This document shows positions 7 to 7,332 of a stretch of DNA of 37,404 nt, in pieces. Under the pieces are notes generated by a model, which had not been told where the DNA came from, ran no database searches, and worked only from the letters and a program-made list of their open reading frames with translations. Numbering within the stretch: position 1 is the stretch's first letter; every line of letters begins with the position of its first letter. The position numbers were made by a program, and so were the translations under genes. The DNA comes from Chitinophagaceae bacterium. Lineage in GTDB: Bacteria; Bacteroidota; Bacteroidia; Chitinophagales; Chitinophagaceae. The stretch covers positions 1 to 37,404 of the forward strand of contig CANGNA010000040.1 in NCBI GenBank assembly GCA_947455215.1, in the 5' to 3' direction.

Positions 7-465
7 TTACTTAAAAAATTTCCTCAGCACTTCCGCCCTGTAGTCAAATATATTTTCCAGCTTCTTTTTCACAACTATCGTATGTGCAATAGTACCTAAT
101 ATGCCCATGGGCAGTCCGTAGCGCACGTCATCATGCATCAATACACCACCATCCTTTTCAGTGAATGTATGTGTGTGTTCCCATAATGCATAGGGCCCTT
201 TAAGCTGTGTATCTACAAACTTTTTCAACGGTACTACATCACCTATTTTGGTCACCCACTTCATCCTTATACCAAACAAGGGTGTTACCCGGTACTCAAT
301 AAGCATGCCTTTGTATATCGATTGGCCTTCCAGGTTCGTGATCACCTCAAATGCCATGTCGCCGGGCGTTATTTTCTCCAGGTTCATGGGCGTCGAAAAA
401 AACTCCCAGGCCTCCTGCAGTGTCACTGGTAAAAACTGCTCTCTATGTAGTGTGTAAATATTCAT
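7..465 (-). CDS. SRPBCC-fold ligand-binding protein, last gene of the carotenoid cluster
   Basis: A 152-residue protein with the layout of the START/SRPBCC (polyketide cyclase-like) fold. An N-terminal strand holds the motif FLPVTLQEAWEFFSTPMNLE, typical of this superfamily. Beta strands follow, and a C-terminal amphipathic helix (about residues 122-150) ends in a basic tail. No signal peptide or membrane segment is seen, so it is probably cytoplasmic or peripheral. It starts with ATG, only 2 nt after the idi stop codon, so it is almost certainly co-transcribed with crtI, crtB and idi. That context suggests a hydrophobic ligand such as a carotenoid or prenyl compound, but this is inference from position only. 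No catalytic residues can be assigned. The fold call is fairly secure, the substrate unknown. Confidence 0.75.
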   Translation of the reverse strand: MNIYTLHREQFLPVTLQEAWEFFSTPMNLEKITPGDMAFEVITNLEGQSIYKGMLIEYRVTPLFGIRMKWVTKIGDVVPLKKFVDTQLKGPYALWEHTHTFTEKDGGVLMHDDVRYGLPMGILGTIAHTIVVKKKLENIFDYRAEVLRKFFK

Positions 466-467
466 AT

Positions 468-995
468 CTATTTAAATAAATCAAAGAAATGGTCGCGATA
501 ACAGATCTTGAACCATTCTGTGAACCTGTCGGGCTGTAACCGCATTTCCTTATCCAGCACGTCAATATCAACATACCTCCATGCCTTTACTTCATCCGCA
601 TCAGGCTTTGGCGTCTGGTTACTATTACCAATGAACACATAGTCATACTCGTGTTCTATCAACCCGTTGCCCATTGGCGCCTTATAAATAAAAGAAAAAG
701 CCTTTTTCAGCTTGGCTTCCATCCCCATTTCTTCCAGCAATCTGCGGTCGGCAGCCTGCCGTACACTCTCTCCCTGCCTGGGGTGGGTGCAACAGGTATT
801 CGTCCATAAGCCGGGCGAGTGATACTTACCATCTGCACGCTGCTGCAACAACAGTTCGCGTTTATTATTGACAATGAAAACGGAAATGGCCCTGTGCAGC
901 AGCCCTTCTTTATGGGCCTGCAGTTTTTCCATTAGCCCTATTTCATTGTCTTGTTCATCAACCAGTATCACCAGTTCATTACCTGTGTCACTCAT
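468..995 (-). CDS. idi: Isopentenyl-diphosphate delta-isomerase, type I
   Basis: A 175-residue Nudix-fold enzyme that interconverts isopentenyl and dimethylallyl diphosphate, supplying the allylic primer for isoprenoid chains. The active-site Cys lies in NTCCTHP (C68, corresponding to the family Cys67), and the catalytic Glu lies in EHEYD (E116). The Nudix-like segment GESVRQAADRRLLEEMG covers residues 75-91. Length matches the type I bacterial family (about 175-185). The ATG start lies 3 nt downstream of the crtB stop, and the SRPBCC gene follows after 2 nt, so the genes form a tight operon. Here the enzyme would boost precursor flow into carotenoids. It is cytosolic, with no oddity seen. 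Confidence 0.96.
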   Translation of the reverse strand: MSDTGNELVILVDEQDNEIGLMEKLQAHKEGLLHRAISVFIVNNKRELLLQQRADGKYHSPGLWTNTCCTHPRQGESVRQAADRRLLEEMGMEAKLKKAFSFIYKAPMGNGLIEHEYDYVFIGNSNQTPKPDADEVKAWRYVDIDVLDKEMRLQPDRFTEWFKICYRDHFFDLFK

Positions 996-998
996 AAA

Positions 999-1835
999 TT
1001 ATAATATGCTGAAAGAATGTCGCAAATAGGAGGCCATGAGTAATCGTAACTTACCGGGGGTAGAGATACGCACACGCTCCATTAATATTTTTGCCGAAGG
1101 TATGCCTCTTATCTTGTTGAACAATGATGTATAGTAAACGTAAGCAACATATACGCCGAAGCGCGATGTGGTTGGCAACAACTTTATACCATCCAGCGCT
1201 TCGTTAAAGTCCTTCTGTATGTCGTGCTCTATCTGCCTTTTCTGGTGCTCAGAGAAATCGGCAAAGTCAACGCCCGGAAAATATACCCTACCCAGTTGCT
1301 CGTAGTCAGCCTTTACATCGCGCAGGAAGTTTACCTTCTGAAAAGCTGCGCCCAGCTTCATGGCACCGGGCTTTAATTTCTGGTATAGCGCTTCGTCGTT
1401 GTCGGTAAACACCCGCAAACACATTAGTCCCACCACTTCTGCAGAACCAAGTATGTAATTCTCGTACGATGCCTGGTTATGGTCTGCTTGCACAAGATCC
1501 ATTTCCATACTGTTCAGGAAACAGGTGATCAGTTCGGGCTCTATATTAAAGTCGTGAACTGCCTTCTGGAAACTGTTGAGTATCGGGTTCATGCTGATCT
1601 TCCTGTCAATAGCTTTCCAGGTATCTTCTTTGAACTCCCTCAGCAGTTCTTCCTTATTATATTCATGAAACGTGTCTACGATCTCATCTGCGAAACGCAC
1701 AAAGCCATAGATAGAATATATCGGCGCCCTTAATCTCTTATTCAGGCAATAAATACCAATAGAAAAGCTGCTACTATAGGTAGTAGTTGTATGCCTGCTA
1801 CAGGCGAGTGATATATCGTCGAAGTGTTGCTTCAT
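999..1835 (-). CDS. crtB: Phytoene synthase (squalene/phytoene synthase family)
   Basis: A 278-residue trans-isoprenyl-diphosphate condensing enzyme that joins two geranylgeranyl diphosphates head to head to give phytoene. Both Asp-rich magnesium/diphosphate motifs are present: FADEIVD (D50, E51, D54) and NFLRDVKAD (N169-D177). The order and spacing are those of CrtB. The N-terminus SSSFSIGIY, where substrate is positioned, is also typical. It starts with ATG 11 nt after the crtI stop and is followed 3 nt later by idi. Squalene-type relatives (HpnC/HpnD) share the motifs, but adjacency to a phytoene desaturase makes CrtB the clear choice. The product is expected to act at the inner membrane with CrtI. 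Confidence 0.95.
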   Translation of the reverse strand: MKQHFDDISLACSRHTTTTYSSSFSIGIYCLNKRLRAPIYSIYGFVRFADEIVDTFHEYNKEELLREFKEDTWKAIDRKISMNPILNSFQKAVHDFNIEPELITCFLNSMEMDLVQADHNQASYENYILGSAEVVGLMCLRVFTDNDEALYQKLKPGAMKLGAAFQKVNFLRDVKADYEQLGRVYFPGVDFADFSEHQKRQIEHDIQKDFNEALDGIKLLPTTSRFGVYVAYVYYTSLFNKIRGIPSAKILMERVRISTPGKLRLLMASYLRHSFSIL

Positions 1836-1846
1836 TGACCGGATTT

Positions 1847-3316
1847 TTAAAGCACTTTTAATAATTGTTCTGCCGCCAACTGGCCAGACACCAGGGATGG
1901 TGGTACACCAGGCCCGGGCACTGTAAGCTGACCGGAGTAAAACAGGTTCTTCACCTTTTTATTCCTCAGCGATGGTTTGAACACCGCCGTTTGCCGCAGG
2001 GTATTAGCTAAACCATAAGCATTACCCTTGTAAGCATTATAGTCATTTACGAAATCTTTGACGCAATAGCTTTTATTGTACACAATATGGTCGCGCACAG
2101 GCTCCTCACAGTATTTTTCCAGCCGCGCCATCACCATATCGTAATACCGGGCCCTTATCTCAGGCGTATCTTCTATGCCCGGGGCAATAGGTATCAACAC
2201 AAACAGATTCTCCATGCCGGCAGGTGCTACAGCATCATCGGTTTTGGAGGGGCAACACACGTAAAACAAAGGATCGGACGGCCATTGCGGTCTTTCATAT
2301 ATCTCGGCAGCATGCACGTCCAGCGATGTATCGAAGAAGAGATTATGATGTTTCAGCGATTTTACCCGCTTATTCACACCAAGATAGAACAATAAACTCG
2401 AAGGAGCAAATGTGCGTTCTTCCCAATAGGCATCGTTGTAGTTGGTGTATGCCGGATCCAGCAGCTTACTTTCTATATGATTATAGTCCGCCGCACCTAT
2501 CACCCCATCCACAGCATAGTTGCCCTTTGATGTGGTGAGCTGCGTGGCCTTACCGTTGCTGATGTTGATCTGTTGTACTTCGCAATCGGTGACAAATTGC
2601 ACGCCCAGCTCTTGCGCCAGCTCGTGCATGGCTTCAACAATTTTTACCATACCACCCATTGGATACCAGGTACCCTGGGATAAGGCGGCGTGATTCATCA
2701 GGCTATACATGCCCGGTATATTCCTGGCCGTTTCCCCCAGGAACAATACCGGAAACTCCATCAGATCGATGAGGCGGTGATCTTTGAAATACTTACGTAC
2801 CTGCTTGCTTACAGAACTGAACATATTCAGCCCCATAGCACTCATCATCACCTTTGGCGTCATGAACTCGCTCCAGGAAAGGCAAGGTTTATATACCATG
2901 TCGCCCATGGCCACTTCGTACTTATATTTTGCCTCTTCCAGAAATTTGATCAGATTGGCTGTGCTGCCTTTCTCTATACGCTCAAATTCCGCGCAAAGAG
3001 CGTCAAAACTGGCCGGAATATCCAGGAGATCTTCTTTTCCAAAGATCATCCTGAAACCTGGATCCAGTTGTACCAGCTCGTAATAATCGGAGGTCTTTTT
3101 ACCAAAATGCGCAAAAAAGCGGTCGAAGGTATCGGGCATCCAGTACCAACTGGGCCCCATATCGAACTTAAACCCTTCTGCACTAAATGAGCGTGCTCTT
3201 CCGCCCACGGCCGTATTTTTTTCGAACACCGTGACCTTACAGCCATTTTTTGCCAGGAAACATGCTGCCGCCATTCCTGCAAAGCCACTCCCTATAACCG
3301 CTACATTTGCCGTCAA
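1847..3316 (-). CDS. crtI: Phytoene desaturase
   Basis: A 489-residue FAD-dependent carotenoid desaturase that introduces double bonds into phytoene, normally giving lycopene. The N-terminal dinucleotide-binding motif is VAVIGSGFAGM (glycines at residues 9, 11 and 14), with the ribose-binding acid in VFEKN. The C-terminal CrtI signature region LFYSGQLTVPGPGVPPSL lies about 30 residues from the end. Length is normal for CrtI (about 490). The start codon is TTG: no in-frame ATG or GTG lies between it and an upstream stop at 3374-3376, and it places the FAD motif at the usual distance from the N-terminus. It is the first of four tightly spaced genes. A -7 element lies about 26 nt upstream, and the CarH-like regulator lies further upstream on the same strand. 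Confidence 0.95.
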   Translation of the reverse strand: MTANVAVIGSGFAGMAAACFLAKNGCKVTVFEKNTAVGGRARSFSAEGFKFDMGPSWYWMPDTFDRFFAHFGKKTSDYYELVQLDPGFRMIFGKEDLLDIPASFDALCAEFERIEKGSTANLIKFLEEAKYKYEVAMGDMVYKPCLSWSEFMTPKVMMSAMGLNMFSSVSKQVRKYFKDHRLIDLMEFPVLFLGETARNIPGMYSLMNHAALSQGTWYPMGGMVKIVEAMHELAQELGVQFVTDCEVQQINISNGKATQLTTSKGNYAVDGVIGAADYNHIESKLLDPAYTNYNDAYWEERTFAPSSLLFYLGVNKRVKSLKHHNLFFDTSLDVHAAEIYERPQWPSDPLFYVCCPSKTDDAVAPAGMENLFVLIPIAPGIEDTPEIRARYYDMVMARLEKYCEEPVRDHIVYNKSYCVKDFVNDYNAYKGNAYGLANTLRQTAVFKPSLRNKKVKNLFYSGQLTVPGPGVPPSLVSGQLAAEQLLKVL

Positions 3317-3342
3317 ACGTCTATTTTGTTTAAAATATTTCT

Positions 3343-3350
3343 CAAAAATA
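3343..3350 (-). promoter_or_regulatory. Candidate -7 promoter element for the crtI operon
   Basis: The minus strand reads TATTTTTG, an exact match to the Bacteroidota -7 consensus TAnnTTTG, ending 26 nt before the crtI TTG start. No TTG -33 element is found at the expected 19-21 bp, so the promoter may be weak or activator/repressor dependent. TTAAACAAAA lies between this box and the start codon. The same 10-mer occurs just before the start of the regulator gene. Confidence 0.5.
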
Positions 3351-3390
3351 TGAACAATAATAATGCCGAAGTGTTAAAGACCAATAAATT

Positions 3391-4272
3391 TTATAAATGG
3401 TCTAATAGGGCATTGATACCGTTGAGGTAGGCAATATTGTTTGCAGAGAGTTCAAGATCCTCAAACAGGGAACTGTTGCCGGCATAGTATATTGTAGCAA
3501 AGGGAGCAATGGCTGCCATCGTATTCAATTCTTCACTGATCTCGGATGATGGCCTTGGTGCGGTAAAGAAGGTAACAATAAAATCGGGCCTTATATCTTT
3601 CAGCACTGCGTTGATATCTTCGTATGGCACGCTTTGGCCCAGGTAAATGGTGCGATAGCCGCGGCTGCGCAACAGGTAATTGGTTAGCAGTAAGCCCGTC
3701 TCGTGCCATTCATTTGGCGGCAAAAACAGCAAATAGGTCTTACCGCTGTTGAGTGGCAGGGGCAAGGTGTCTATTGCGGCAATTATTTTGCGCCTGATAA
3801 CACAGGATGCAAAATGCTCTTGTATAGGAGAAGCCTTATCTGTGCGCCACAGCAAACCTGTTTTGGCCAAAAATGGATAAACAACATTAGTTATGGTAGA
3901 AAAGAAACCCATTTCGCGGGCGGCCGAGGCAAAGGTATCTTCTATCAACTGCTCGTTATATCCCAGCATACCTTCAGCAAGTTTGCTGATATAGGCAGAA
4001 CATGCCGCATCACCAGCGGGCTGATGGTGCAGGCGAACGATGTGTGCTGCAAAGTCCTCATCGCTGAGGGCAGCTATAGCTGATATCTTAAACCCATTGG
4101 ATGCCAGCGTAGAAATATTAAGCAGCTTGATCAACTGCTCGCTGCTATAGTAGCGCCGGTTGGTAGCCGTGCGTGACGGAATGATAAGGCCGTACCTTTT
4201 TTCCCATATGCGTATGGTATGAGCCTTGATACCCGACAAGCGCTCCAGATCGTGGATTTTATATTCTGTCAA
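3391..4272 (-). CDS. MerR-family regulator with B12-binding domain, CarH/LitR-like photoreceptor
   Basis: A 293-residue regulator. Residues 1-70 are a MerR winged helix: YKIHDLERLSGIKAHTIRIW is the canonical recognition segment, followed by EKRYGL. Residues 85-165 form the helical cap domain and contain W142-x9-E152-H153, the motif that covers adenosylcobalamin in CarH. Residues 178-293 are a cobalamin-binding Rossmann domain with E188-x-H190-xx-G193, where H190 would be the lower axial cobalt ligand. CarH proteins repress carotenoid genes in the dark as AdoCbl-bound tetramers and release DNA in light. Retention of all key residues here suggests the same, acting on the adjacent crtI-crtB-idi genes. 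The start is TTG: it gives the standard MerR N-terminus, and no ATG lies nearby. Light and B12 dependence is inferred from the family. Confidence 0.9.
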   Translation of the reverse strand: MTEYKIHDLERLSGIKAHTIRIWEKRYGLIIPSRTATNRRYYSSEQLIKLLNISTLASNGFKISAIAALSDEDFAAHIVRLHHQPAGDAACSAYISKLAEGMLGYNEQLIEDTFASAAREMGFFSTITNVVYPFLAKTGLLWRTDKASPIQEHFASCVIRRKIIAAIDTLPLPLNSGKTYLLFLPPNEWHETGLLLTNYLLRSRGYRTIYLGQSVPYEDINAVLKDIRPDFIVTFFTAPRPSSEISEELNTMAAIAPFATIYYAGNSSLFEDLELSANNIAYLNGINALLDHL

Positions 4273-4280
4273 AATATTTT

Positions 4281-4310
4281 TGTTTAAGCAAAGTTAAACA
4301 AAATTAAACA
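4281..4310 (-). promoter_or_regulatory. Three tandem 10-bp repeats overlapping -7 elements: likely operator/promoter of the CarH-like gene
   Basis: Read on the minus strand, three consecutive 10-mers follow each other without gaps: TGTTTAATTT (4310-4301), TGTTTAACTT (4300-4291) and TGCTTAAACA (4290-4281). The first two junctions create exact TAnnTTTG elements (TAATTTTG and TAACTTTG, the latter at 4296-4289), so the repeats overlap the promoter. Repeats spaced by one helical turn fit binding by an oligomeric MerR-type protein. The CarH tetramer of Thermus is known to contact three tandem repeats of about 11 bp. Autoregulation is inferred. Confidence 0.6.
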
Positions 4311-4359
4311 GAAGTATACATATACGCCGATTATATTAATTTTCCCTCGCCGATCATGA

Positions 4360-7332
4360 TCATTTGTTCCTGGGCAACCTGAAGGTAAGGCTGATGATCG
4401 TACCCTTTCCGAAGAAAGAGTCTATGTATATTTTACCGTTAAGCCGGCCGGCACGTATGTGCATATTGTTCACTCCATTACCCCTTTTTACACCTTTCAG
4501 ATCGAAGCCCAAGCCATCATCACGGAGTGTGAGTTGTAACACATCCTTACGCTTCATGTTCACGTCCAGTGTCACGTTGTTGGCTTTGGCATATTTCAGG
4601 GCATTGTTCAACGCTTCTTTAAAGATCATGATGAGGTTGCGGCTCATATCCATGGGCAGCTTGTAGGTGCGCCATTTTTCTTCTATGCCCGACACTGAAA
4701 ATTTGATATCTGTATCCTCAAACAGTTCATTACCAAAATCCTGTATCCTTACCAATATCTCGTAGAGGTTATCATTAGATGGTTTTAGCGACCACAGTAT
4801 ATCGCGGGTACCACCATATAACAGGGTTGTATTTTCCTCTATCTGGTTAAGCAACCTGAGTATCTCGGGATCGGGCACTACCTTATTCTTTAAAACGCTG
4901 GTCAGCACATTGATGCGGGTGAGCTTATTGCCTATCTCATCATGAAAATCCTCGGCGGTGCGCATCCTTATCTTAGCCTGCTCTTCGGCACGCAAACGTG
5001 CCATCAGTTTTTGTTTACGCTGCTTGCGCTTGTTATATACCGATTGCATGGCAATACCAATAAGAATACAAATAACAAGGATACCGGTTCTGAACCACCA
5101 TGTTTTATGGAAGGGTGTAATGATCTCGAAAGCATACACCAGCTCGGGGTGCTCTGCCCCACCCGAGCCTAAACACTCCACATGAAAGGTGTACTTGCCC
5201 GGCGGTAAGGCTGAATAGGTAACAGAGTTGGTAGTAGACCATTCGGACCATGGCGCATCAATACCCTCCATGCGGTAACGGTAGAGCACCTGCTCTGCAC
5301 CACTCATGGTTATGGCCTGGAAAGTGAAGGTGATATTATTTTTTTTAAAGGGCAGCTGTAAACCCTGTGGCACGCCATACCAGGGATCGAGCGTGGTATA
5401 GTAAGACCTGTCAATACTGCTCTCGCCCACCAGCTTTACAGACTGCATCACAATGCTGGCCGGCGCTGCCGACACTACGGATGAGTGGGGCTGGTAGTGC
5501 ACGGCACCATTGGTGGTACCAAACCATATACTGCCATCGCCGAGCTTGAGCACAGCGTTGATGTTACTTTCCATACCGGCCACGCCTTGTGCCTTGCCGT
5601 AGAAGGTAACCTGCGGGTTATTGCTTTTACTGAGGCCTATTTTATGAATGCCAAAGCCGGTGCCCACCCAAATGTTGCCGGCACTATCATCGATGATATT
5701 GTAGATAAAATCGGACCGCAACCCGTTGGCCTTATTAATGACCTGGGCTTGCCCGGTGGCCATATCGAAGCGTATGACGCCATTATCGCTGCTGCCCAGC
5801 CACAGGTCGGCCCCCCTACGGACAAAGCAATTGATCTGTGAACTATCGGCTATGGTGCGGGTAATGAATGGCGCAACATTGCCGGCATTATAGAGGAATA
5901 GTCCATCTTTCTCGGTGGTCATCAGCACGCTATCCATGCCTATTGACACAAACGAGACCACATGCGCAGAAGACCGGACGGGAATAGTGCGAAATGTATC
6001 TTGGTCACGCACCAGCACCCCTAATCCAAAGGCTATCCACAACCTGTGTTCCTTATCCTCGTAAAGCTGGGTAATAAAGTTTGACGGGAACCCGTGCTGA
6101 GGTGTAGTATACTGGCGGAATGTCTCATGATCGTATTCGTACAGTCCATTCTCGCGCGTGGCCACCCACAACCGCTGATCGTGCGTGTAGCATAACGACG
6201 TAATAGCAGGTACATTTTTAGAGGGTATATACCGGGGTGTTATCTTACCATTATTGAAAACAAACAGACCAGACTCATACGTACCCAGGAACAGCGAGTC
6301 GCGCTTGTTGGATGAGATGGCCATTATCTGTGCGCTGGGCAGGCCCATAGACTCATCGAGCACGGTGAACAAGGTGCCCGAGAACCTATAAATACCCTGC
6401 CCGTCTGATGACATCCACACGTTCCCCTCGTGATCGGTCATCACGTCGTAGAACATATTGTCGCACAGGCCGTTTTTCTTATTATATATCTGCAACATGT
6501 TGCCTGATATCTTCATGACCCCACTTTTGGTGGCCAGCCATAGGGCTCCGGAGCGGTCCTGGGATAAAGAAGAAACAGTTATGTAGTTGAGGGGCTGACC
6601 GTTCAGTTCAAAAACTTTTATCTGCTTACCGGCCAGGTAGTACAAGCCTGCCGTAGTACCCAACCATATGCCGCCTGTGCCATCGCGGAAAATATTAATA
6701 ATAGCCGGGGCCCTCTGATCGCCGGACATGGCAAACGTAAGCGTTTCCCACTTGCCATTACTGCTATGAAATAGCGTGTCGCCCTGGGCTACCCATATGC
6801 CACCCTGCTCTGCAAGCATGGCTGTTGTTTTGCCTGTAAGCACAGGCGTAGTGTAAGGGCGCAGCTTTTCGCCCGACAGATAATAAACGTTGCCGCTCAC
6901 CCGCCACCATATGGTATCATTTACCACATGTATATCTTGCTGAAAGTTGATGAGCCGTGGAATACTATTATCTAAAACGTAGTTGGTAAAGGTAGCCCCA
7001 TTGAATTTTGTGAGGCCCTTCTGTGTGCCTATCCAAATATTCCCCCTGGCATCCGGCACTACGGCGCTGACCATGTTCATCAGCAGGCCATTCCTCACCG
7101 TATAATTAGTAAAGGTTCGACCATCGTAACGGGATAAACCACCCATGGTGCCTACCCACAGATTGCCAATTTTGTCTTGCGTGAGGCACAGCGCCTGCGA
7201 TTGTATGAGCCCTTCGTCGATGTTCAGGTTCTGAAACGTGTAGCGCTGTGCGTGTACCCGGCTGAATGGCCACACACATAACGCTGATATTACAATGACA
7301 AATAATAAGCCTGTAGACCTGATGAACTTCAT
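4360..7332 (-). CDS. Propeller-type sensor histidine kinase (Reg_prop / Y_Y_Y / HisKA_3-like)
   Basis: A 990-residue membrane sensor kinase. A signal peptide (residues 1-29) precedes two predicted seven-bladed propellers made of repeats such as GNLWVGTMGGLSRYDG and GNIWIGTQKGLTKFNG (about residues 30-640). A Y_Y_Y domain follows (about 665-750, YRYRMEGIDAPWSEW). A single transmembrane helix lies near 752-772, then a short basic coiled coil. The kinase core has phospho-acceptor His797 in FHDEIGNKL, an N-box FKEALNNALKYA near 906-917, and DDGLGFD near 938-944 for ATP. It ends at the ATPase domain: there is no receiver or AraC module as in hybrid systems, and no response regulator gene is next to it. 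It probably senses an extracellular ligand, unidentified. The ATG start gives a good signal peptide. Confidence 0.9.
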   Translation of the reverse strand: MKFIRSTGLLFVIVISALCVWPFSRVHAQRYTFQNLNIDEGLIQSQALCLTQDKIGNLWVGTMGGLSRYDGRTFTNYTVRNGLLMNMVSAVVPDARGNIWIGTQKGLTKFNGATFTNYVLDNSIPRLINFQQDIHVVNDTIWWRVSGNVYYLSGEKLRPYTTPVLTGKTTAMLAEQGGIWVAQGDTLFHSSNGKWETLTFAMSGDQRAPAIINIFRDGTGGIWLGTTAGLYYLAGKQIKVFELNGQPLNYITVSSLSQDRSGALWLATKSGVMKISGNMLQIYNKKNGLCDNMFYDVMTDHEGNVWMSSDGQGIYRFSGTLFTVLDESMGLPSAQIMAISSNKRDSLFLGTYESGLFVFNNGKITPRYIPSKNVPAITSLCYTHDQRLWVATRENGLYEYDHETFRQYTTPQHGFPSNFITQLYEDKEHRLWIAFGLGVLVRDQDTFRTIPVRSSAHVVSFVSIGMDSVLMTTEKDGLFLYNAGNVAPFITRTIADSSQINCFVRRGADLWLGSSDNGVIRFDMATGQAQVINKANGLRSDFIYNIIDDSAGNIWVGTGFGIHKIGLSKSNNPQVTFYGKAQGVAGMESNINAVLKLGDGSIWFGTTNGAVHYQPHSSVVSAAPASIVMQSVKLVGESSIDRSYYTTLDPWYGVPQGLQLPFKKNNITFTFQAITMSGAEQVLYRYRMEGIDAPWSEWSTTNSVTYSALPPGKYTFHVECLGSGGAEHPELVYAFEIITPFHKTWWFRTGILVICILIGIAMQSVYNKRKQRKQKLMARLRAEEQAKIRMRTAEDFHDEIGNKLTRINVLTSVLKNKVVPDPEILRLLNQIEENTTLLYGGTRDILWSLKPSNDNLYEILVRIQDFGNELFEDTDIKFSVSGIEEKWRTYKLPMDMSRNLIMIFKEALNNALKYAKANNVTLDVNMKRKDVLQLTLRDDGLGFDLKGVKRGNGVNNMHIRAGRLNGKIYIDSFFGKGTIISLTFRLPRNK

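Follow-up and report, generated by a model that had tools for sequence, protein, structure and literature searches.

The carH-like gene at positions 3391–4272 of the window, that is, the whole stretch of DNA that was analyzed, an entire contig of 37,404 bases (C40 of genome G000), probably encodes a CarH-type repressor that depends on adenosylcobalamin (AdoCbl), is released from DNA by light and governs a photoprotection regulon. The founding member of the green-light B12 photoreceptors, CarH, has been characterized in a few organisms. With less assurance, we lean towards a wider reading, a phylum-wide AdoCbl light regulon of Bacteroidota, in which a CarH branch free of bis-His ligation would use imported B12 and act from a palindrome-type operator, TTGTTTAA-N16/17-TTAAACAA, on genes for carotenoids, photolyases/cryptochromes, pterins and isoprenoid reduction. 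A large branch in a major environmental phylum, without the ligand His and with another operator, would show in nature whether light release requires bis-His ligation. From the repeat one would also obtain a direct list of predicted light- and B12-controlled genes, DNA repair included, and the prediction that bacteria which import B12 rely on their neighbors' B12 for protection from sunlight.

Protein family and carotenoid operon

The open reading frame is on the minus strand and encodes 293 amino acids from a TTG start at 4272, and frame 1 of the plus strand over the same positions has stops throughout. Pfam MerR_1 matched residues 4–70 (7.7e-16) and the four-helix model B12-binding_2 matched residues 96–163 (2.8e-06). 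The Rossmann model B12-binding gave 19.9 bits, under its cut-off of 32.1; after residue 179, however, alternating strands and helices align to CarH B12 domains, so the Rossmann domain is present. The AlphaFold2 model has a mean pLDDT of 91.7, and the structures found first by Foldseek were full-length Thermus CarH (5c8d, 5c8f and 5c8e), followed by 8jbt, the B12 domain of CtMerR. The TM-score over the whole protein was only about 0.55, probably owing to a different orientation of the domains, and was about 0.7–0.8 (target-normalized) when the comparison was limited to B12 domains. The protein thus has the architecture of CarH and class I LitR, in which a MerR domain is joined to a four-helix bundle and a Rossmann domain for B12 binding, with a clear fold match.

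The winged helix named in the preliminary description is therefore confirmed, as is the adjacency of crtI, crtB and idi on the same strand (Table 1). The label "CarH-like" holds for sequence matches in the PDB, the top ones being Thermus CarH/LitR (E about 1e-19), but not for the NCBIfam CarH model NF052513, which gave 91.9 bits where its cut-off is 400.

Downstream of carH, the three carotenoid genes are followed by a gene for a 152-aa protein, at which the contig ends. Its product had no Pfam or NCBIfam match at E 0.001, and we take it to be SRPBCC-like. In the genus relative G004, the operon continues with genes for an FA_hydroxylase, presumably crtZ-like, and a lycopene cyclase. In the window, and in those genus loci that extend to crtI (gaps <70 bp), no ECF-type sigma gene separates carH from crtI, whereas many Bacteroidota loci have one there (L055:3983-4480; many of L239–L306). 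The upstream neighbor of carH, at 4360–7332 on the minus strand, encodes a 990-aa two-component-propeller histidine kinase.

Table 1. Positions of the genes, motifs and predicted sites in the window
Feature	Position	Strand	Basis
152-aa protein, kept in the operon of genus members	7..465	-	ORF
idi, isopentenyl-diphosphate isomerase	468..995	-	TIGR02150, 145.9 bits (cut-off 105.8)
crtB-like phytoene synthase (SQS_PSY)	999..1835	-	PF00494, 2e-40
crtI-like phytoene desaturase	1847..3316	-	NF058655, 732.8 bits (cut-off 640)
Second inverted repeat, carH-crtI gap: minus strand TTGTTCAT-N16-TTAAACAA, 2 mismatches	3326..3357	.	Motif scan
TATTTTTG, -7 box match within the crtI repeat	3343..3350	-	Motif match
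carH-like gene, 293 aa	3391..4272	-	ORF; Pfam/NCBIfam; PDB sequence match; AlphaFold2; Foldseek
E188-W-H190-ET-G193; H190 aligned to the lower cobalt ligand of TtCarH, His177	3694..3711	-	Sequence and alignment
W142-x9-E152-H153	3814..3849	-	Sequence; identical in all 20 aligned sequences
Arg143, at the position of TtCarH His132	3844..3846	-	Alignment to Thermus CarH
MerR winged-helix DNA-binding domain, residues 4–70	4063..4263	-	Pfam MerR_1
Proposed carH operator: minus strand CTGTTTAA-N16-TTAAACAA, 1 mismatch, with an internal TTGTTTAA half-site	4280..4311	.	Motif scan; conserved spacing
TAACTTTG, second -7 box match in the carH operator	4289-4296	-	Motif match
TAATTTTG, -7 box match (TAnnTTTG) inside the carH operator	4299..4306	-	Motif match

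Cobalamin pocket and cofactor supply

Trp142, Glu152, His153 and His190 align to Trp131, Glu141, His142 and His177 of Thermus thermophilus CarH (TtCarH) and are invariant in 20 aligned sequences, those of the window protein and 19 relatives. The same four residues were kept in 90, 91, 88 and 85 of 93 homologous frames, one from the window and the others from 92 loci around further carH matches, and in 80, 80, 80 and 79 of 80 named loci. These 80 were taken from at least 590 confirmed loci, which a single peptide pattern of the DNA-binding domain, favoring this branch, had picked out. The sets of 92 and 80 loci partly overlap (L230 and L231 resemble G001 and G009). In CarH, the residues of Wx9EH are described as capping the adenosyl group (PMC10442372, PMC9304148). 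The intact Wx9EH separates the window protein from CarA, and the lower axial His stands in E188-x-H190-xx-G193, of the form D/ExHx2G/P expected of CarH.

A B12-independent regulator of the CarA type, which needs a partner protein for derepression, exists as a paralogue in myxobacteria (PMC9304148), and the ligands have been lost in some Bacteroidota homologues; for the window protein we nevertheless consider this reading very improbable, as it keeps the whole pocket, including W142, the Trp of Wx9EH that is lost in CarA. The homologues in question are CarH paralogues at L111, L114, L119, L123, L124 and L125, which lack the lower His and parts of Wx9EH, and a Persicobacter plasmid copy, which has a His at the His132 position and has lost EH and the lower His. 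The six paralogues without the lower His look as if CarA-like regulators independent of B12 had arisen separately in Bacteroidota.

The preliminary description had both cobalamin motifs intact. Both motifs that it named are indeed present, but the classic fingerprint is longer, D/ExHx2G/P-x41-SxT/V-x22-27-GG (PMC9304148), and its GG is A264-G265 in the window protein and its Ser is replaced by F235 or T234, depending on the alignment. A signature put forward for B12 domains that respond to light consists of GxxW, EH, GxxH and GxxxP (PMC11796333). Three of its four elements are exact in the window protein (G139-W142, E152-H153 and G212-P216), and GxxH reads N187-E-W-H190. NxxH occupies this place in 17 of the 93 frames (window included) and in 20 of the 80 named loci (of at least 590). 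The further claim, that the named residues mediate release by light, leaves out His132, which in TtCarH becomes the upper cobalt ligand once lit, giving a bis-His complex (PMC10442372). This His after the Trp is absent from the window protein, which has Arg143, and was found in only 3 of the 93 frames (window included) and 0 of the 80 named loci (of at least 590). At the positions of TtCarH Arg176 and Asp201, which we take to be the residue numbers of the dimer salt bridge, the window protein has Trp189 and Ser214. An Arg-Asp salt bridge has been described in the dimer interface of Thermus CarH (PMC9304148). With Arg143 and Trp189/Ser214 in place, the oligomer and release chemistry of Thermus is therefore not simply transferable. 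The light-controlled carotenoid system proposed in the preliminary description is the best-supported reading, given the conserved repeat at carH, crtI, photolyase and pterin genes.

The idea that Arg143 abolishes the response to light was not accepted: in CtMerR, the B12 domain also has Arg at the His132 position, and by SEC-MALS and native MS it is a tetramer in the dark and a monomer once lit; its crystal without bis-His ligation is an anaerobic crystal (PMC11796333). The loss of His132 was also rejected as a novelty of Bacteroidota, since among seven aligned homologues from outside the phylum (two from Thermus and one each from Azoarcus, Comamonas, Eleftheria, Caballeronia and Allorhizobium) only the two from Thermus have the His. 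Takano reportedly called His132 "semi-conserved" in 2016. The His after the Trp has been ascribed to "many" myxobacterial CarH proteins (PMC9304148) and is carried by only two of the seven aligned homologues, so it is unnecessary for membership of the CarH group.

As for the cofactor, the genome of the window has a PduO-type ATP:cobalamin adenosyltransferase, as do 116 of the 119 searched genomes (own included), and a methylmalonyl-CoA mutase. The preliminary description saw no B12 synthesis gene in the window; genome-wide, CbiC, the one corrin-ring gene searched, had no match. One cobalamin riboswitch was found in the genome, before a DUF4465 gene and with a DUF5074 gene two genes on; this locus (L156, C6:14000-25000) also holds a further gene for a protein with a secretion tag, and we take its genes to resemble surface B12-capture genes. 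With the adenosyltransferase, riboswitch and mutase found and CbiC not, AdoCbl made from salvaged B12 is plausible, and the cell probably imports B12 and converts it to AdoCbl.

The inverted repeat as a proposed operator

Among relatives, an inverted repeat, TTGTTTAA-N16-TTAAACAA, is shared by the regions upstream of carH and the gaps that separate carH from crtI. In the window alone, its two copies are weak evidence, as 7 of 100 shuffles gave at least as many; the copy in the carH-crtI gap is perfect in G006 and has one mismatch in G005 and G009. Among the 80 named carH loci (of at least 590), which come from across the phylum, a spacer of 16 with at most one mismatch was found in 56, with 0 in a reversed-pattern control, whereas a spacer of 15 gave 0, a spacer of 17 gave 7 and other spacers from 0 to 30 gave at most 3. 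Everted and direct arrangements of the half-sites reached at most 11 of these 80 loci (of at least 590). When two mismatches were allowed, 67 of the 80 loci (of at least 590) had the repeat, compared with 1 for the control; the repeat typically stood ahead of carH or in the gap to the following gene. At the same stringency, 17 of the 80 (of at least 590) had a copy immediately upstream of carH, compared with 1 for the control, and many others had it after carH. In the 92 loci from relatives' genomes, spacers of 16 and 17 occurred in 36 and 25 loci, respectively. Named carriers of both carH and the repeat are Algoriphagus, Pontibacter, Dyadobacter and Marivirga; at loci with an intervening ECF-type sigma gene, such as that of Algoriphagus, copies of the repeat typically precede the sigma gene. 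A first impression of 10-bp direct repeats upstream of carH was dropped, because the conserved element in the relatives is the inverted repeat with its fixed 16-bp spacer.

In most known CarH operators, three or four 11-bp direct repeats with the core TnnACA stand in tandem, and some operators are less regular; inverted repeats are described in the same sources for the CarA/CarH site of M. xanthus only, and the plasticity of CarH operators is noted (PMC8156234, PMC9304148). Tandem direct repeats of the scanned half-site, TTGTTTAA at spacer 3 (an 11-bp period), were found in 0 of the 80 named loci (of at least 590). The half-site TTAAACAA includes TnnACA, the core of the known CarH repeats, so we regard the half-site as CarH-type and the arrangement as different.

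The repeat was enriched genome-wide only in relatives that carry carH, which a search at E 1e-10 found in 76 of 119 genomes (own included). At up to one mismatch, the genome of the window holds 11 copies against 1 in the reversed control. Summed over the 11 genomes of the genus, there are 65 sites against 3 control sites, every genome exceeding its own control, and 65 carH-bearing genomes outside the genus hold 111 against 44 (Wilcoxon p 4e-5), whereas 43 genomes without a carH match hold 23 against 27 (p 0.72), all three comparisons being uncorrected for phylogeny. The repeat might instead belong to another regulator, with CarH governing only its own operon through other sites. The inverted arrangement, unlike the direct repeats known for CarH, would fit this, as would G077 (75% complete), which has no carH match, yet three repeat sites, one of them at folE. 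We consider it quite unlikely, as it sits poorly with the repeat in 67 of the 80 named carH loci (of at least 590; up to two mismatches), with an enrichment confined to genomes where carH was found and with the CarH core TnnACA in TTAAACAA. We therefore prefer CarH itself as the protein that would bind these repeats.

The direction of control is suggested by the promoter elements. TAnnTTTG, which we take to be the Bacteroidota -7 box consensus, matches within both repeats of the window (Table 1). Across 76 sites, it was counted 34 times at repeat offsets -5, 5, 8, 15 and 16, against an expected 0.047 per offset; these favored offsets lie inside the repeat or over its left edge, and smaller peaks 40–59 bases on (four offsets) account for 18 counts. 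Such -7 boxes within the repeat suit repression by occlusion. Ordinary MerR proteins also work from inverted-repeat sites (PMC8156234), as would be expected if the protein were a MerR-like activator acting from a palindromic site; this is the least probable reading of all, given that the -7 boxes inside the repeat suit occlusion and that the CarH/LitR members described in the available sources are repressors.

Predicted regulon and relation to known light regulators

At up to three mismatches, the genome of the window has 55 sites against 49 in the control; the full set was therefore rejected as a regulon, and only the best sites are meaningful. Four copies are perfect. One is flanked by a photolyase-related gene (PF04244, 1e-54) and a gene for cryptochrome-DASH (TIGR02765, 478 bits), one lies 46 bp before the gene for GTP cyclohydrolase I (folE), which is followed by a short-chain reductase gene, one 9 bp upstream of a DUF2805/TIGR03643 gene and one 7 bp upstream of a gene for a secreted hydrolase-like protein. 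Of the seven copies with one mismatch, one is that of carH, one stands before a geranylgeranyl-reductase-family gene, three are at secretion-tag genes, one stands before a cytochrome gene and one overlaps the start of an unassigned frame; three of the seven (C16, C47 and C88) overlap predicted frame starts. At five of the 11 sites, the gene that follows has no known light role; four of these genes encode secretion-tag proteins and one a cytochrome.

The gene neighbors of further sites were sampled in 40 stretches, comprising 23 of 30 sites among the matches listed for six genus genomes and 18 elsewhere; six carH-crtI sites and G001:C443 were excluded, and the sites of G002, G003, G004 and G010 were not covered. 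In these six other species of the genus, 12 of the 23 copies directly precede a homologue of a gene that has a copy of the repeat in the genome of the window, or of its operon partner (33–82% identity), and three more precede a gene for pyruvoyl-tetrahydropterin synthase (PTPS), one of which was the source of the PTPS query. Regulon-type genes were counted at 18 of the 23 in all; three of these were the sources of the SOUL, PTPS and photolyase queries, and without them the count is 15 of 20. A FolE-like frame (40% identity) near the sites of L200 and L206 was left outside this count. Outside the genus, only 4 of the 18 sites examined, among the matches listed, precede a regulon-type gene, so most such sites are probably chance occurrences. 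Independently of the motif, carH itself adjoins a folE, PTPS or DASH-like cryptochrome gene in L228, L233 and L236. The predicted target set overlaps the light-inducible genes of Pseudomonas LitR, for which PhrB, FolE, CryB and folM have been reported (PMC9758184).

It is also conceivable that the protein binds AdoCbl but mainly senses the level of B12 or redox, light release being weak or absent since the His132 switch is missing. The Arg at this position would agree with this, and so would a probable dependence on salvage, CbiC not having been found. The Thermus H132A variant was mostly tetrameric in light in one study, although it disassembled in an earlier report (PMC10442372). We regard this reading as unlikely, because light turns the tetrameric B12 domain of CtMerR, with Arg in the same place, into a monomer (PMC11796333), and because the genes linked to the repeat are light-linked (two of the photolyase family, carotenoid genes and folE) and overlap the Pseudomonas LitR set (PMC9758184).

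For the preferred reading, a light-released CarH-type repressor, we suggest the following course. AdoCbl would be made from salvaged cobalamin, and in the dark CarH would oligomerize and bind TTGTTTAA-N16-TTAAACAA over the -7 boxes of the carH and crtI promoters, as well as the copies elsewhere. Light would cleave the Co-C bond, the adenosyl group would exit the W142/E152/H153 pocket, and the lit oligomer would disassemble without bis-His ligation (compare the B12 domain of CtMerR), releasing the DNA. This release would induce carotenoid synthesis, cryptochrome-DASH and the photolyase-related protein, together with GTP cyclohydrolase I and the short-chain reductase, the geranylgeranyl-reductase-family enzyme and the TIGR03643 protein.

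The closest relatives of the window protein are CarH and CtMerR. With CarH/class I LitR of Thermus thermophilus it shares the MerR domain, four-helix bundle and Rossmann B12 domain, the Trp, Glu-His and lower His, and an adjoining carotenoid gene. It differs in the Arg for His132, the Trp/Ser at Arg176-Asp201, AG for GG, a predicted inverted-repeat operator in place of tandem 11-bp direct repeats and a wider predicted target set. CtMerR comes from Chloracidobacterium thermophilum, which we take to belong to a phylum other than Bacteroidota. It has the Arg at the His132 position, the light signature and the MerR architecture in common with the window protein, but its DNA-binding domain has diverged and it has GxxH where the window protein has NxxH (8JBS/8JBT; PMC11796333). 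The class II LitR proteins of Pseudomonas (PplR and PmlR2) likewise target photolyase/cryptochrome genes, folE and folM; however, they have the four-helix domain only, without the Rossmann B12 domain of the window protein, PmlR2 is controlled by a LOV protein, and their operator is of the TGTACA-N12 type (PMC9758184). MliR of Bizionia was set aside as a relative by its description, as "cobalamin" has 0 occurrences in the available text, where carotenoids come up in passing (PMC9478572). Among the open-access matches listed (subscription journals being outside this scope), no paper concerned a CarH regulon or operator in Bacteroidota, as judged by title or abstract opening. Streptomyces LitR works with the sigma factor LitS. 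The ECF-type sigma gene at many Bacteroidota carH-crtI loci is a likeness to that system, whereas in the window the repeat stands directly before crtI with no intervening sigma gene.

Some neighbors of the repeat are worth noting. In two species of the genus, it lies 155–156 bp before a gene for a multihaem cytochrome, which is followed by a large iron-sulphur gene (position 6638 of L151, contig C55 of the window's genome, and position 3469 of L195); we take the pair to be alternative-complex-III-like, and from the spacing in the two species, respiration genes may share the regulator. PTPS genes adjoin the repeat in L191, L197, L202 and L217, with GTP cyclohydrolase I (L191, by Pfam) or a similar-looking frame (L202 and L217) behind, which possibly points to a light-induced pterin pathway. 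Genes for SOUL haem-binding proteins stand directly at the repeat in L188 and L217.
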